A stretch of DNA of 21,698 nucleotides. It comes from a virus. The DNA is taken from the IMG/VR virus record IMGVR_UViG_3300042923_000280, positions 1-21,698 of that record; one strand, 5' to 3'. Below are positions 6,141 through 21,581 of the stretch, piece by piece. Positions within the stretch are counted from its first letter, which is position 1. Every line of letters begins with the position of its first letter. Under the pieces are notes generated by a model. It saw only the letters and a program-made list of their open reading frames with translations, searched no databases and had not been told where the DNA came from. The position numbers were made by a program, and so were the translations under genes.

Positions 6141-6190
6141 GGTGGGATAGGCTGATCACCGACAAGTTAGGAACTCTACCTAATTTCCCA
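6141..6190 (+). ncRNA. Foldable 5' leader of the HNH gene (candidate structured RNA)
   Basis: Two mutually exclusive folds are visible. Fold A has a hairpin GGTG/CACC (6141-6144 with 6157-6160) and a 7-pair hairpin AGTTAGG/CCTAATT (6165-6171 with 6179-6185, one G-T). Fold B pairs TGGGATAGG (6143-6151) with CCTA (6179-6182) and TCCCA (6186-6190), leaving a 3-base bulge. I do not recognise a known riboswitch or intron core. The leader ends 37 bases before the start codon. Confidence 0.35.
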
Positions 6191-6227: not shown

Positions 6228-7037
6228 ATGCCAGAATTTAAAGATTTTACAGGTGAAAAGATTGGAAGATTGACAGTGATACGAAGAACTGAAAATGACA
6301 AAAAAAACAATTCTTTGTGGATCTGTGTTTGTGAATGCGGCAAGGAAACTGTTGTTCGAGGAATTAGGCTGAAAAATAAAGAAACATTGTCTTGTGGTTG
6401 TGTAAGAAGGGCTGATTTAACGAATCAGAGATTCGGCATTTTGCAAGTTATTAAATTTCATCATAGTGATGATAAGGGTGTAACTTTTTGGGAATGTTCG
6501 TGCGATTGCGGAAATAATAAGGTTATAAGATCCGGTGATCTAAAAAGAGGTTCTATAAAAAGTTGTGGTTGTTATGGAATTCAAACACGTGCCGACAGCA
6601 TTCGAAAACACGGAATGACAGGAACGCCAATATACGCCGTTTGGCGTGGGACGAAACAAAGATGCGACGACAAAAATCACGAAGGATATGCCAATTACGG
6701 TGGTCGCGGAATTAAATATTGCGATAATTGGAAGGCCTTTGAGGGTTTTTATAATGATATGGGTGAGGCGTACCAAACTGGATTAACGATCGACAGAAAA
6801 AACAACGACGGAAACTACGAACCCGAAAACTGCCGATGGATTACTCAAAAAATGCAGTGTAACAACAAGAGGGACAATAGAAATATTGAATTCGATGGAA
6901 TAGTCGATACACTGACTAATCACTGCGAAAAACATGGAATACCATTTCACACTGCAAAAAGTAGGTTGAATAGTGGGTGGAGTGTAGAAAGAACATTCAA
7001 AACCCCAGTACGACATAGTAAAAATAGAAGCGCCTAA
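6228..7037 (+). CDS. HNH/AP2-type homing-endonuclease-like protein with two zinc ribbons
   Basis: A 269-residue protein starting at ATG 6228. It has two N-terminal zinc-ribbon-like repeats, each opening with G-[EQ]-[KR]-x-G-x-L-x-V-I: cysteines C33/C35/C37...C56/C58 and C90/C92/C94...C113/C115. Residues 127-210 carry the nuclease-like core seen in many phage HNH/AP2 proteins (HGMTGTPIYAVWRGTKQRC, NYGGRGI and D188-R-x-x-N-x-G-x-Y-x-x-x-N-C-R-W). Residues about 222-260 are a helix-turn-helix of the kind attached to homing enzymes (LTNHCEKHGIPFHTAKSRL, then NSGWSVERTF). Its own promoter and terminator, and its insertion cleanly between two tail-connector genes, mark it as a selfish free-standing element. 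It is visibly more AT-rich than the flanking genes. I see no intron core, so it is not clearly intron-borne. Confidence 0.82.
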   Translation: MPEFKDFTGEKIGRLTVIRRTENDKKNNSLWICVCECGKETVVRGIRLKNKETLSCGCVRRADLTNQRFGILQVIKFHHSDDKGVTFWECSCDCGNNKVIRSGDLKRGSIKSCGCYGIQTRADSIRKHGMTGTPIYAVWRGTKQRCDDKNHEGYANYGGRGIKYCDNWKAFEGFYNDMGEAYQTGLTIDRKNNDGNYEPENCRWITQKMQCNNKRDNRNIEFDGIVDTLTNHCEKHGIPFHTAKSRLNSGWSVERTFKTPVRHSKNRSA

Positions 7038-8860: not shown

Positions 8861-10567
8861 GTGGCAATTACTAAGTTAATTACTGATGTTAACAATGTTC
8901 AGGCTTTAGCTGATAGGCCTAATTCGAATGACGGATTGACCGCAAATGAATTAAAAGAAGTTTTCGATAAAGCTGGAGCAGACATAAAGGACTATATTAA
9001 TAACATTTTAACGCCTGAGATTGACTCAAATTCAGGTTTGAATATAGGTATCGTCAATGTCATGTCATACGGCGCTAAGGGTGACGGAGTTACTAACGAC
9101 ACAGCATCCATTAACGCAACCTTCGATTCACTTGCGGGCGGTGGAGTCGTTGTTATTCCAGGTGGAACTTACATGATTGATGTTGTTACTGATTCAAGAG
9201 ACAGACCATCAACAGGAGGCATTCGTGTCCCGAGTAACGTCACGCTTTTCATCCACCCTGATGCAACCCTAAAGGCGATAACAAATGATTCTGAAAAATA
9301 TGCAGTGTTGAGACTTCTTGATGCTACAAATGTTTTAATTTATGGAGGCGGGACGATAGAAGGAGAACGGAGCACTCACACAGGTGTCGGTGGCGAGTGG
9401 GGTAACGGTATTATGATCAATGGTGGATCTGATATAACAATTGAATCAATAAATATCAAAGATTGTTGGGGGGATGGTATATTCTTCGGATCTGGAACAG
9501 GTTCGCTAGGTGATCCGTCCATAAACGTAAAAATTAAGAATGTAGTAATCGACAACGTACGCAGAAATGGCATTTCAGTAATTTATGGCGAACGACTAAC
9601 GATAGATGGGTGTGAAATTAGAAACACCAACGGAACGGCACCTGAATGTGCAATAGATATTGAACCTGAGTTTTTGTCTGTAGGATATACGGTCAGGGGA
9701 ATCACGATAAACAACTGCAATTTTATTGATAATAACGCTGATGGAGTGTTGGCCTTCTCGGAGGTGTATAACCTCACGATTAGCGATTGTTTAGCTAAAG
9801 GTAATAATCGAGGGTTTGTCCTATTCGGCACTAAAGGCGGTAAATTGGTCGGTAACTCCTGCAAAGAAAACACTCTTTCAGGAATTCATTTAGAGGGTTG
9901 TACTGTGGTAAGCGTAACTGCTAACGAAACAGTACTAAACGGGGAGAACGGCATTTCAGTTATCGGGAGCAGCGAGAAAAACACGATAACAGCAAATGTA
10001 AGTTCAAGCAATACAGGTAGCGGTATTTATGTAGGTGGATCGAGTAAAAATATTATTTCATCCAATATTACGAGGAGCAATGTACAACAAGGAATCCATC
10101 TATTCCAGTCGTTAAATAACGTAGTGAATTCTAATCTCGTTTCGGAAAATACTCAGAATGGAATCAGAGTGTTTTCCACTTCTACTGGAAATAAAATTTC
10201 AGGAAACTCAGTGTTTCAAAATGGATTAAACGGTATTGCAAATGACACATGTGGAGAAACTTCAATCCTAGAAAACGATTGTTATGAAAACTCCCAGACA
10301 ACCAACTCAACCTATCACAACATATATGTGCTTGAATCAGCGGATTGTTCAGTCATAGGGAACAAGTGCAGGAAGGGCGCGACTACAAACAAGCCAGCAA
10401 GAGGAATATTCTTGTCTGGAGCTTCCACTAATCGCACAATCCTTAGTAACAACGATTGTTATTTAGGTGGTGTAAGTTTTGGAATAAATGTGGGCTCCGG
10501 GCCAACAAATACTTATAATGGCGGAAATAAGAATATTGATGGTGCTTTCAGCACAACGCCGAGTTAA
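8861..10567 (+). CDS. Tailspike with pectate-lyase-like right-handed beta-helix
   Basis: A 568-residue protein; start GTG 8861 is preceded by TGAGGTGG. Residues 1-60 (LADRPNSNDGLTANELKEVF) are a short head-binding/trimerisation segment seen on many Firmicute phage fibres. Residues 66-110 carry the signature of the pectate-lyase-3 family: VMSYGAKGDGVTNDTASIN followed by GGGVVVIPGGTYMI. The rest is a chain of beta-helix coils of the type N-x-[IV]-x-x-N-x-x-x-x-x-x-G-I (for example NTITANVSSSNTGSGIYVGG), as in NosD-like and spike proteins. Such spikes bind and often cleave surface polysaccharide; the active residues cannot be read with confidence, so depolymerase activity is inferred. There is no classical C-terminal chaperone domain. 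The stop overlaps the next start as TAATG. Confidence 0.85.
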   Translation: MAITKLITDVNNVQALADRPNSNDGLTANELKEVFDKAGADIKDYINNILTPEIDSNSGLNIGIVNVMSYGAKGDGVTNDTASINATFDSLAGGGVVVIPGGTYMIDVVTDSRDRPSTGGIRVPSNVTLFIHPDATLKAITNDSEKYAVLRLLDATNVLIYGGGTIEGERSTHTGVGGEWGNGIMINGGSDITIESINIKDCWGDGIFFGSGTGSLGDPSINVKIKNVVIDNVRRNGISVIYGERLTIDGCEIRNTNGTAPECAIDIEPEFLSVGYTVRGITINNCNFIDNNADGVLAFSEVYNLTISDCLAKGNNRGFVLFGTKGGKLVGNSCKENTLSGIHLEGCTVVSVTANETVLNGENGISVIGSSEKNTITANVSSSNTGSGIYVGGSSKNIISSNITRSNVQQGIHLFQSLNNVVNSNLVSENTQNGIRVFSTSTGNKISGNSVFQNGLNGIANDTCGETSILENDCYENSQTTNSTYHNIYVLESADCSVIGNKCRKGATTNKPARGIFLSGASTNRTILSNNDCYLGGVSFGINVGSGPTNTYNGGNKNIDGAFSTTPS

Positions 10568-10716
10568 TGAAGGTGATTAAAATTAATAGGTTATATCACG
10601 CCCTATGGTTCCGCTATCATAGGGCGTTACTCAATTCTTTGACGGACAATCCGAACGTCGAAAAGACAAGAATGCACCATGAACGTAAAATGAACCGTCA
10701 CAAGGAGCTTATATAA
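10567..10716 (+). CDS. 49-residue basic protein, coupled at both ends
   Basis: A short frame too small for common length cutoffs. ATG 10567 overlaps the tailspike TAA as TAATG, and its own TAA (10714-10716) overlaps the protease ATG the same way, so the three are joined base by base. The product reads MKVIKINRLYHALWFRYHRA then LLNSLTDNPNVEKTRMHHER, ending KMNRHKELI: basic, aromatic at the front and helical, with many His. An alternative start is GTG 10573, in the same frame. No strong ribosome site precedes the first ATG, so it may rely on ribosomes ending the spike gene. The 3' end contains CAAGGAGC, the ribosome site of the protease. No known family recognised; it may be a small DNA-, RNA- or membrane-associated helper. 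Confidence 0.65.
   Translation: MKVIKINRLYHALWFRYHRALLNSLTDNPNVEKTRMHHERKMNRHKELI
10598..10627 (+). repeat. Perfect 10-bp inverted repeat inside the 49-aa gene
   Basis: ACGCCCTATG (10598-10607) and CATAGGGCGT (10618-10627) flank a 10-base loop. No T run follows, so it is unlikely to be a standard terminator; it could slow transcription or translation, or be a protein-binding site. Confidence 0.7.
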
Positions 10717-11345
10717 TGAAAAAAATACTCTCTTTAATCCTGATTCTCATATTCGTCATCCCTTATCAATCCAGCGCCGGGGAACTCACAGACGAACAAC
10801 AACGAATAAGCGGAATAGATCGCGCAATGAAAGCAACCGTAATGATTGAAATATTAGGTGATGGAATAATCCCGCTAAGCTACTCTAGCGGGTTTTTTGT
10901 TACCCAAAACACCATTATAACTAATCATCATGTAGTCAGCCGTGAGGGTTCAACGGGTATTCGAATCAGGATGTCGGACAATAAAGTTTGTACTGGAACT
11001 GTGGGATACCGGAATAAAGGCGTGGATCTAGCTCTCATTAAGACTGATTGCACAGCGGAACCATTGGAAATCGCAGACTATGCAGTACTAGGCCAAGACG
11101 TATTCGTACTCGGATCGGCTAAAGTGGATTTCGCAGTTAATGCGGGTATCGTGGCTAAGCTAGAGGATAAGCAACACATCGTAGCCAACGTATTTGCTAC
11201 TCACGGAAATAGCGGGGGCGCAATGATTAATTCTGACGGCAAGGTCGTCGGCGTTGTGAGAGGAAGCGAAGATGCTGAATACTTCGTTTACGGAATCCAG
11301 ATTAAGCACATAAAATACTTTTTAGAACAATCGGGGGTGTTGTAA
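10716..11345 (+). CDS. Secreted trypsin-like serine protease
   Basis: A 209-residue protein starting at ATG 10716 behind AAGGAG. Residues 1-21 are a clear signal peptide: KK, then the hydrophobic run ILSLILILIFVIP, then a likely cleavage site after SSA. The mature part has the chymotrypsin-fold (S1, DegP-like) triad: H72 in TNHHVV, D104 in VDLALIK and S166 in GNSGGA, plus the closing GKVVGVV strand. C92 and C112 could form a disulfide outside the cell. There is no PDZ domain, so it is a minimal protease like the S1 fragment of HtrA. It lies between the tailspike and internal protein genes with 1-base TAATG overlaps on both sides. Export could target a host surface protein; a virion-associated role is the alternative. 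A secreted protease in this position is unusual. Confidence 0.87.
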   Translation: MKKILSLILILIFVIPYQSSAGELTDEQQRISGIDRAMKATVMIEILGDGIIPLSYSSGFFVTQNTIITNHHVVSREGSTGIRIRMSDNKVCTGTVGYRNKGVDLALIKTDCTAEPLEIADYAVLGQDVFVLGSAKVDFAVNAGIVAKLEDKQHIVANVFATHGNSGGAMINSDGKVVGVVRGSEDAEYFVYGIQIKHIKYFLEQSGVL

Positions 11346-12709
11346 TGGCGGCCTACAGTTATGCTGATGAAAAAGCAAGGAAGCAAGCCGCAGGAATACC
11401 GCTTAACAATGGGGTGAAAGCCACAACAACCCCGGCTAAACCCACTTCTACAGGCGGCATGTCGCAAGCTCAGATAGATGCTGAGATTAGACGCAAGGCT
11501 AATGAGGGCATAGCGTTAAATAAACCCACAGCGGATAGGCAAGCGATGTATGACGAAGTAAGAGGAAATTTAACAAACGAGGTTTACCGTAAAGCAGACA
11601 ACGGAATCCCTTTGGCGGGAAGTAGTGGTTACAATCAATCGTTGTATGATGCAAGATTAGCCGCTAATAAACAACCGGAAGTTAATGCAAGCGCTATGGG
11701 GACAGGATCGGGAAACGCCGGAACACCTCAATCATTCATTGATCAACTAAACAATTCAAGATTAAACGCCACTCTAGCCGCACTCGGTAAGTCACGGGAT
11801 GCGGCTTTGTCGAATCTAGGGGCTGAAAAGGGCGCGATTGCCCCTAAATATTACGACCAACGAAACCAAGTGGCTGCCGGCGCACAACAACAAGCTCGCA
11901 ACTTCGCTGAGTTTATGGCGGCTAGAGGCGGTACGTCGTCCGGTGCTAACGCTCAAGCTGAATTGTCCCGTAACATGACCACACAAGGCAACCTAGGCAC
12001 TCTAGGGCGGCAAGAGGCGCAAGCATTCACGGACATAGAGCGTAGAACCTCAGACTTGCAGAACGCCTACCAATCCGACGTAGCAGGAGCTACAGCGGGC
12101 GTTGAAGCTGATCGTATGCAAGCGATGCTCCAAGACTATTACAACGAACAACAACGTCAATTACAGATTGCAGGACTCACAGGAGTCTATAACGATCAGA
12201 AGACGCTCGGAGGAAGATCCGCTGACCTCGCACAGCAACAATTCCAATATGGTCAAACACGCGATACTATTGGGGATTCCCAATGGCAACAACAGTTTGA
12301 CCTTAACAAGCAACTTAATGAACGAGACTATAACTATCAGGTCGGACGGGATGATATAGCTGATTCACAGTGGGCGCAACAGTTCAAAGAAGAAGTCAAT
12401 CAAAATGGAGTTCAGAATGCTTTAGCGCGAGTGAAAGCTAGTTCTAGTGGTTCTGGTGGAACTAAAGGGCTATCGCTTGCTCAGAAGATATCCATTTGGA
12501 AGATCAGCGGTGAAGCTCCAGAGGGTATACCAGGAGTCACGCCGGGCGCTAAAGTATATGACGAAGTAGCTGCAAGAAAAGCCGCTGAGAAATCCGGTGG
12601 AGTTAAGCTGTGGGATGCCATTAAAGGTGTCTTAGGATCTGTTAACAATGCGGCTGGAAATGCTTCCGGTGGTGCAAGTGATGCAGATATTAATCAGTAC
12701 CTCAAGTAG
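11345..12709 (+). CDS. Repeat-rich internal virion / DNA-ejection protein
   Basis: A 454-residue protein starting at ATG 11345, whose first base is the last of the protease TAA stop. It is Ala/Gln/Asn-rich, without membrane segments, and long stretches are helical. Three N-terminal copies of R-K-x-A-x-x-G-I-[PA]-L are seen at R12-L20, R50-L58 and R82-L90. A second pair, D-S-Q-W-x-Q-Q-F, starts at residues 311 and 340 (29-residue period). The middle part (NQVAAGAQQQARNFAEFMAA, then RGGTSSGANAQAELSRN) is a pattern common to internal core proteins of podoviruses and N4-like phages. With the 1281-residue protein next door, it is best explained as part of the set of proteins ejected to make the DNA conduit. 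No enzymatic motif seen. Confidence 0.7.
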   Translation: MAAYSYADEKARKQAAGIPLNNGVKATTTPAKPTSTGGMSQAQIDAEIRRKANEGIALNKPTADRQAMYDEVRGNLTNEVYRKADNGIPLAGSSGYNQSLYDARLAANKQPEVNASAMGTGSGNAGTPQSFIDQLNNSRLNATLAALGKSRDAALSNLGAEKGAIAPKYYDQRNQVAAGAQQQARNFAEFMAARGGTSSGANAQAELSRNMTTQGNLGTLGRQEAQAFTDIERRTSDLQNAYQSDVAGATAGVEADRMQAMLQDYYNEQQRQLQIAGLTGVYNDQKTLGGRSADLAQQQFQYGQTRDTIGDSQWQQQFDLNKQLNERDYNYQVGRDDIADSQWAQQFKEEVNQNGVQNALARVKASSSGSGGTKGLSLAQKISIWKISGEAPEGIPGVTPGAKVYDEVAARKAAEKSGGVKLWDAIKGVLGSVNNAAGNASGGASDADINQYLK

Positions 12710-18516: not shown

Positions 18517-18678
18517 ATGAACTATATGGGCATAGGCGAGGCAGAAAAGCTATGGAACATACCTCGCGCTACATTAAAGAGAATGTGTATAGACAAACGT
18601 TTGGTTGCTGAGAAAGTCAGTGGGCGTTGGCTAATTGATAAGGATCAGAAGAAACCGGAGAAGATGAGGGGGATATAA
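18517..18678 (+). CDS. Excisionase/AlpA-like helix-turn-helix protein
   Basis: A 53-residue protein starting at ATG 18517 with GAGGTGG upstream. It reads MNYMGIGEAEKLWNIPRATL then KRMCIDKRLVAEKVSGRWLI and a basic tail. The layout GEAEKLWNIPRATLKRM (helix-turn-helix), then RLVAEKVSGRWLI (a wing ending in W-L-I) is that of the small winged MerR/excisionase group (HTH_17). Members bind DNA to bend it for phage excision or to regulate transcription. Being the first gene of an operon under an operator-bearing promoter and sharing the phage with a serine integrase, it is a candidate recombination directionality factor or regulator. It is joined to the next gene by TAATG. Too short to settle which. 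Confidence 0.7.
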   Translation: MNYMGIGEAEKLWNIPRATLKRMCIDKRLVAEKVSGRWLIDKDQKKPEKMRGI

Positions 18679-18848
18679 TGAAGCTTAGCGAAATGACATA
18701 CAATCAACTGCTCGATGAAATCGGTTATTGTGAGAGTAAGAAAGAGGCTTTGCAAGAAAAGATTTATGAAATGTCGGGAGAGCTAAAAAGAAGAAGGAAT
18801 ACAAGTTCGGTTAACCCATCCTATACTATGAAGGAGAGGGAGAAATGA
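18678..18848 (+). CDS. 56-residue charged coiled-coil protein, function unknown
   Basis: ATG 18678 shares its first base with the TAA of the preceding gene. The product opens MKLSEMTYNQLLDEIGYCES and is helical throughout its first 40 residues (KKEALQEKIYEMSGELKRRR), with a polar end. Length and heptad-like spacing suggest a small dimerising helix. Its 3' end supplies AAGGAGAGGGAG as ribosome site for the next gene, whose ATG overlaps its TGA. No family recognised. Confidence 0.6.
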   Translation: MKLSEMTYNQLLDEIGYCESKKEALQEKIYEMSGELKRRRNTSSVNPSYTMKEREK

Positions 18849-20144: not shown

Positions 20145-21581
20145 TTAATCTGCGAATCTATACCCCATGATTTTCCATCCGCTATCGAACATTAGGACGA
20201 TTGCTGAGAATAGATTTTGTACTTGTATCTTCCGCGTTTCGTATGATAGGGAATCCCATTTCTCCGACATTTTTATTATGTCTGAAAGGAAGTCTTTACG
20301 AGTTCTTGAAGAGGTAGGAGAAAATTGCTCTAACTGGCTCAACTCATTTTCCCATTTTGTTATTTTAGAGTTCTCTTCGTCCATCAGCTTCTCATACATG
20401 TCGAAGTCGAGCTTGCCTGATCCCATAGCTCGGGTGTAGTTCATTTTCTTAGCTGCGCTTTCTTCGATTAGTTTGCGTGTCTTTTTAATTTCTTTCTCGG
20501 GATTCTTATCGTCAACTTTCTTTTCCGAATCTGGCGTATCTAATTTAATCCTGGTTAGCAACTCAAGGAACAATTCATTTATTTTCAATTCGTTTATGCG
20601 GGGATTGGGGCAATTGTCGAATCGGTTACCGGAACAAACATAGTATCTGTACTTCTTACCGTCAGCCCCTTGTGATCTTCCCGTTAAGCTCCTGCCGCAG
20701 GCCGCACATTTAAGGATTGCAGAGAAAGGAAATTCAAATCCTGATCGGGACATCGATCGTTCTCCTTTGCGTCGAATAATCCTTTGGGCAGTCATAAACA
20801 CATCTTCGCTAACAATAGCTTCGTGACGATCCTTAACTATGATTCTATCACTCTCGTCATCACCTTTAGCCTTCCAGTGCGTAGCGCCTATATAAGACCA
20901 GTTAGAAATGATAGTGCCTATTACCATGTGTCGCCATACGCCGCCCTTAGGAGCCGACACAGGAGTTCCGTCGATGCCTTCTGTGTTTAACTTGTGCGCG
21001 ATCCACTGGAAACCTTTTCCCGAGATATACCAAGAGAACATCTGCCTAACGACACGAGCCTCAGGTTCGCTTATGACGAGTGTTAAATCTTTGTTGGCAC
21101 TATAACCGAACGGAACTGATCCTGTCATTCTAAGCCCGTTCTCGGCACGTTTGCGGACACCTTTGTAAACTTCCTCAGATAGATTCTCTCGATACCATTG
21201 AGCGAATATCCCCAACATATACACAAACATCCTGCCCATGGCAGACGATGTATCTATATTTTCCGAAACGGATACGAGTCTTATTTCCTTTTTGTCGAAC
21301 AACATCAATAAACTGTGCAAATCTCCAATGTTACGAGTAAGCCTGTCCAATTTATGCACAACAACGATGTGGACAACATTTTTATTAACATCAGCTAGCA
21401 GCCTTTTCATGTCCGGTCTGTTTAAGTTCTTACCAGACTTGCCAGGATCGATGTAAGAGCCTCCGAAGTCCCATCCTTGGGATTTGATAAGCGATATATT
21501 CTTTTCGTTCTGTACCTCAAGGGAGAAGCCCTCACGCGCCTGTTCTTCCGACGATACCCGTTCATACGAGACAGCTATCAT
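20145..21581 (-). CDS. Large serine integrase
   Basis: A 478-residue protein starting at 21581 (ATG behind AGGAGGTG-CAGC). It catalyses site-specific integration of phage DNA (attP x attB) by a serine nucleophile. Residues 1-140 form the resolvase domain: R8 and S10 in YERVSSEEQ, and D79-R80-L-T-R83. Residues 150-270 are the recombinase (DNA-binding) domain, starting LRMTGSVPFGY. A zinc ribbon follows with C292, C295 (KCAACGRSL), C316 and C324, then a coiled-coil segment (about residues 350-425) that controls synapsis and direction. Size and layout match TP901-1/phiC31-like integrases. Excision by such enzymes normally needs a directionality factor; the helix-turn-helix protein at 18517 is a candidate. 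attP normally lies near the 5' end of the gene, here to the right of 21581. Confidence 0.93.
   Translation of the reverse strand: MIAVSYERVSSEEQAREGFSLEVQNEKNISLIKSQGWDFGGSYIDPGKSGKNLNRPDMKRLLADVNKNVVHIVVVHKLDRLTRNIGDLHSLLMLFDKKEIRLVSVSENIDTSSAMGRMFVYMLGIFAQWYRENLSEEVYKGVRKRAENGLRMTGSVPFGYSANKDLTLVISEPEARVVRQMFSWYISGKGFQWIAHKLNTEGIDGTPVSAPKGGVWRHMVIGTIISNWSYIGATHWKAKGDDESDRIIVKDRHEAIVSEDVFMTAQRIIRRKGERSMSRSGFEFPFSAILKCAACGRSLTGRSQGADGKKYRYYVCSGNRFDNCPNPRINELKINELFLELLTRIKLDTPDSEKKVDDKNPEKEIKKTRKLIEESAAKKMNYTRAMGSGKLDFDMYEKLMDEENSKITKWENELSQLEQFSPTSSRTRKDFLSDIIKMSEKWDSLSYETRKIQVQNLFSAIVLMFDSGWKIMGYRFAD

Follow-up and report, generated by a model that had tools for sequence, protein, structure and literature searches.

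Are four phage genes that are joined by overlapping stop and start codons a functional unit, or does such an arrangement also arise when unrelated cargo is packed into an operon? We addressed this question for a locus in a 21.7-kb virus record (IMG/VR IMGVR_UViG_3300042923_000280), all 21,698 nt of which are hereafter called the window. The record encodes a P22-type portal, a coat protein, and a serine-recombinase-like ORF (20145-21581, named from its own sequence) that suggests the phage is temperate. The original prediction proposed that a tailspike, a 49-aa protein (p49), a trypsin-like protease, and an ejection protein are produced at fixed dosage by translational coupling and function jointly in entry or maturation. 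The genes and the elements within them, all on the + strand, are as follows.

8861 to 10567, +: beta-helix tailspike of 568 aa (Pfam Beta_helix, 2.3e-35; PHROG 2234, tail spike); one flank of the slot, outside the cassette.
10567 to 10716, +: p49, a predicted basic two-helix hairpin protein.
10594 to 11342, +: exchangeable cassette block defined by blastn, 749 bp of shared DNA with abrupt boundaries at both ends.
10597 to 10628, +: RNA hairpin within p49 at the 5' edge of the block, with a 12-bp stem (-19.7 kcal/mol, z -6).
10716 to 11345, +: trypsin-like serine protease of 209 aa (Pfam Trypsin_2, 1.6e-20) with a hydrophobic N-terminal export signal or anchor and no PDZ domain.
10871 to 10898, +: terminator-like hairpin in the protease gene, a 7-bp GC-rich stem followed by U6.
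11345 to 12709, +: 454-aa protein, a probable internal virion protein distantly homologous to Pagevirus Page_18; the other flank of the slot.

The evidence presented below favors, with a probability of roughly 0.7, a different arrangement, wherein two related lineages of Gram-positive podophages carry a variable slot behind the tailspike and the window carries a mobile p49–protease cassette as cargo in that slot.

The three TAATG junctions chaining the spike, the 49-aa ORF, the protease, and the 454-aa gene (10565-10569, 10714-10718, and 11343-11347) are indeed present, and in each the last base of the stop codon is the first base of the next ATG. They are ordinary in kind, and their occurrence as a run of three is only mildly unusual. 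TAATG is not over-represented in the window (64 occurrences versus 55.8 expected), a fourth -1 overlap of this type is found at 18676-18680, and with four such junctions among approximately 22 same-strand junctions, a run of three is expected in roughly 5% of random placements. Co-directed prokaryotic genes are most often spaced by overlaps of -4 or -1 nt (PMC10666635, PMC6728339), -1 being the second commonest distance (PMC10666635). Coupling via such overlaps has been established experimentally in other organisms and was strict in 13 of 14 tested pairs (PMC6728339, PMC10666635). Overlapping or closely spaced gene pairs are also enriched for subunits of complexes, although in Escherichia coli the proportion of such pairs that specify complex subunits is only 30.4% (PMC10666635, PMC6728339). 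Translational coupling at the window junctions is plausible, and joint function does not follow from coupling.

The ribosome-binding sites of the three downstream genes have values of -2.5 (49-aa ORF), -7.5 (protease), and -12.5 kcal/mol (454-aa gene). Because p49 is the only one of the three without a good Shine–Dalgarno (SD) sequence, it alone would depend on coupling, and the fixed dosage originally proposed is doubtful given that the other two have SD sequences of their own. When related phages were inspected for the same gene order and TAATG junctions, the order was not conserved. Likewise, none of the three junctions is retained as TAATG in the other cassette copies, where the spacing is +12 or +8 between spike and p49, -4 between p49 and protease, and 0 between protease and the next gene.

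A search with the protease sequence yielded three contigs that carry p49 and the protease together, in each case between a spike gene (447 or 582 aa) and an unrelated 219-aa gene. The shared block (blastn query positions 1795-2542 at an offset of 8799) is 82% identical to the window in L002/L003 and 77% identical in L004, and it is the sole DNA common to the two lineages in the stretches compared. The pair is adjacent and tightly overlapped (-1, -4, and -4 nt) in three distinct phages, and thus co-occurs in independent contexts (window, L002/L003, and L004). Note that there are only three distinct cassette copies, and that those other than the window copy come from related metagenome samples. 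All three have GGGGGTG at the 3' end of the block, which serves as the SD sequence for the next gene. The first nine codons of the window p49 lie outside the block, indicating that the p49 start comes from the host context. These sequence comparisons support well the view that p49 and the protease are a real pair that moves together. The diverged proteases of L042 and L053 have no p49 upstream, and we found no description of this cassette in the literature.

The portion of the proposed joint unit that stands is therefore the p49–protease pair, which is adjacent and co-moving in three phages. Membership of the spike and the 454-aa protein is not supported, since in L002 and L004 the pair follows a different spike and precedes an unrelated gene, and the pair is absent or replaced in relatives that have both the spike and the 454-aa protein (L052, L053, L055, L058, L062, and Pagevirus). 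The latter is the pattern that the original prediction itself had named as contrary to a unit. The N-terminal part of the spike is common to the window, L051-L053, L056, L058, and L062, and its beta-helix body is 35-36% identical to the spikes of L002 and L027. Cassette DNA is 82% identical although the spike proteins are only about 35% identical, and thus the cassette does not track the spike; the distant similarity of the window and L002 spike bodies (35%) may nonetheless reflect some link to spike type. The 454-aa protein may be an ejection protein; a scan of viral contigs with this protein revealed no confirmed relative.

The variability of the slot is evident in both lineages. Using the 219-aa gene as an anchor, we recovered 21 lineage-B loci, 18 of them distinct, in which the slot holds the cassette (2), a different protease (1), no gene at all (5), or another or no clear gene (10). 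Occupants in the last group include an acyltransferase, a hydrolase-like protein of 253 aa, and small ORFs of other kinds, and some of its loci have no clear gene; in L041, for example, the slot encodes an Acyl_transf_3 protein whose gene is followed by a terminator-like site. The different protease, in L042, is trypsin-like, 33% identical to that of the window, and unaccompanied by p49. The spike directly abuts the 219-aa gene in L028, L030, L032, L034, and L037, and the cassette lies between these genes in L026 and L029. The closest comparison is provided by L027 and L029, whose spike DNA is 89% identical and whose slots contain an unrelated 110-aa ORF and the cassette, respectively, with homology breaking just after the spike stop codon and resuming at the start of the 219-aa gene. 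These two loci are versions of the spike region at the two ends of one 50-kb contig (IMGVR_UViG_3300042934_000156), which may represent prophages in tandem or two strains assembled together. In either case, two different slot contents accompany closely similar spikes.

For the window lineage, the 592-aa tail gene served as the anchor. The slot holds a trypsin-like protease 32% identical to that of the window in L053, and only small ORFs in L052, L055, L058, and L062. In Pagevirus, the corresponding place has a zinc carboxypeptidase in Page and Palmer and nothing in Pascal. Short XkdX-like proteins, named from sequence, are encoded behind the spike, in the position of cargo in other phages, in L045:4850-4993, L046:4841-4984, L052:10303-10434, and L058:10809-10967, and those of L045, L046, and L052 have a -1 overlap with the preceding ORF. 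Elsewhere in the window, a 269-aa HNH endonuclease-like ORF (6228-7037, assigned from sequence) separates two tail genes that are direct neighbors in L053.

The protease has the His/Asp/Ser triad and the fold of trypsin-like S1 proteases. Residues H72, D104, and S166 (the last within GNSGG) are invariant among five aligned proteases, and the structural model (pLDDT 84.3) best matches HtrA1 protease domains in the PDB (TM about 0.75). Its N-terminus consists of MKK, a strongly hydrophobic core, and SSA-GE, and a hydrophobic N-terminus is present in all six proteases compared. On the basis of hydropathy and this sequence pattern, a candidate for a cleavable Sec signal peptide, the protein is predicted to be exported, and its site of action is probably outside the cytoplasm, at the host surface or in the surroundings. 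Such a signal or membrane anchor would make a role in capsid maturation unlikely. Likely roles would be release, stripping of the surface or of receptors, or lysogenic conversion. Among other phages, matches H1-H8 are distant trypsin-like proteases, three records being fecal scaffolds without annotation. Among 100 genomes reached via P. jilunlii, searched with the protease and without a positive control, there was no match at 1e-10. A further trypsin-like protease with a hydrophobic N-terminus (L010:11830-12549, 25% identical) lies approximately 2 kb behind a large 1375-aa gene and not behind a spike.

The p49 protein has no Pfam match and no PHROG match even at an E value of 10, and its AlphaFold model (pLDDT 78.6) comprises helices at residues 8-25 and 29-48. 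Searches of viral contigs with p49 recovered the same cassette only, and a search of a phage collection yielded only chance-level Vibrio matches. Codon evidence that p49 is a protein is modest (40 codons). Its dN/dS relative to the other copies is about 0.2-0.3, compared with about 0.06 for the protease; the strong conservation of the protease, together with a constraint on p49 that is weaker yet evident, suggests that both genes are in use. L053 has a 46-aa Tyr/His-rich ORF (11509-11649) that overlaps the protease stop codon by ATGA and resembles p49 in composition, on the other side of the protease. As an order-swapped p49 homologue this ORF is unproven, because shuffles gave nonsignificant p values of 0.06-0.31; a p49 HMM search also gave no support, the exact reading being absent as a separate top match.

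Two hairpins within the cassette are candidate RNA-level elements, and an Rfam search returned nothing at gathering thresholds. The inner stem of the p49 hairpin is identical in all copies, and its codon-resampling p values (0.002 for the window, 0.016 and 0.017 for the other copies) point to a candidate RNA-level signal. The terminator-like hairpin and U-run of the protease gene recur in L002 and L004 (about 6156-6183 in each) and in L053 (about 11026-11053), where they occupy the same two Phe codons though the protease is only 32% identical. When the window, L002, and L004 are compared, both partners differ in three of the seven base pairs, yet all pairs are kept; this compensatory signal is abolished by sliding the partner columns. 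Synonymous-codon shuffles were as stable as the observed sequence in 0.65% (window), 0 (L002), 0.45% (L004), and 0 (L053) of cases; the window value is not independent because the site was noticed afterwards, and the others are fixed-site tests in which L002 and L004 are related to the window. Coding sequence contained 233 runs of at least five U residues; a hairpin with a stability of -8 kcal/mol or better accompanies 22 of them, these four included.

A second hairpin with a U-run was observed about 730-780 nt downstream of the 219-aa gene start in L028, L030-L037, and L039, early in the gene that follows the 219-aa gene. These ten loci (eight distinct) all belong to lineage B, none has the cassette, and the distinct ones comprise all five whose slot is empty plus three more. 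The stems differ by paired changes (GGGCTC/GAGCCC, GGACTC/GAGTCC, and GGACTG/CAGTCC). In Gram-positive bacteria of low GC content, ribosomes can fall behind RNA polymerase, which leaves the RNA between them uncovered (PMC13323073), and therefore such a hairpin could terminate transcription within a gene. The candidate terminator in the protease gene also argues against fixed dosage across the region. Tentatively, these late operons might possess selected intrinsic terminators inside coding sequence behind the tailspike, which would act as step-down or lysogeny-silencing valves, such that the protease and downstream genes are expressed only after antitermination or at a reduced level. If so, the dosage of structural genes would be set partly by elements hidden in accessory genes.

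How the cassette might be used can be viewed in several ways. That all four genes constitute an entry or maturation module with stoichiometry fixed by translational coupling is very improbable. Three consecutive -1 overlaps, the strict coupling, and the enrichment among complex subunits cited above speak for it, but the pair is missing or replaced between the same flanks, occurs with other flanks, and is joined by junctions whose types change, while the export signal speaks against a capsid maturation protease and only one of the three downstream genes lacks a good SD sequence. It is unlikely, though not to the same degree, that the protease belongs to the virion or is ejected from it, cleaves surface proteins during entry, and is exchanged along with receptor specificity. 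Wherever a slot locus has the protease, it does adjoin the spike; proteases recur there in both lineages, and the slot of Page and Palmer also has a peptidase. However, the protein has a predicted N-terminal export signal, the disparity between cassette and spike identity indicates no tracking of the spike, and the diverged L010 protease lies on the far side of the lysis genes, distant from the spike.

We consider it doubtful that the protease gene is a conversion gene expressed in the lysogen, whose secreted product alters the lysogen surface or excludes other phages. The serine-recombinase-like ORF and the L041 acyltransferase with its terminator-like site are consistent with this role, but the cassette is on the same strand as the late operon, packed tightly into it, and a promoter scan gave only chance-level hits, with none evident before the cassette. 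In the accessory-slot reading, which we prefer, the cassette would bring the ribosome-binding site of the protease and a strong 3' SD sequence for whichever gene comes next. With its own translation signals, it could drop into a late operon without breaking it, and the TAATG overlaps would be seams of tight packing. The protease would be made late in infection (or at a low level in a lysogen), then exported to act outside the cytoplasm, probably with p49 as its partner. Gram-positive podophages have a recurrent insertion slot behind the tailspike in which putatively surface-acting or secreted enzymes, repeatedly proteases, are swapped. More generally, stop–start overlaps are no proof of a functional complex, because the close fitting of cargo into an operon produces them as well.

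Several known systems resemble parts of this arrangement. The window protease shares the protease-domain fold and triad of the HtrA/DegP family (S1C), but it is phage-borne, approximately 25% identical, and outside HtrA/DegP proper because its 209 aa end with the protease domain and the C-terminal PDZ domain is absent. The Pagevirus phages of Bacillus megaterium (Page, Palmer, and Pascal) have the same late-gene logic and homologues of the portal, 592-aa, 454-aa, and 1281-aa proteins; the shared proteins are, over parts of their length, about 26-43% identical, which is below genus-level similarity. In contrast to the window phage, neither a trypsin-like protease nor p49 was found in them, and their 454-aa homologue is located four or five genes downstream of the spike. 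Morons characteristically have their own promoter and terminator; in contrast, the sole terminator-like site of the cassette lies inside the protease gene rather than behind it, no promoter was found, and translation of the cassette is packed into the operon by overlaps. Nevertheless, like morons, the cassette consists of extra, interchangeable genes inserted between conserved neighbors that abut in relatives, and several occupants of the slot share with morons functions that are secreted or directed at the cell surface.
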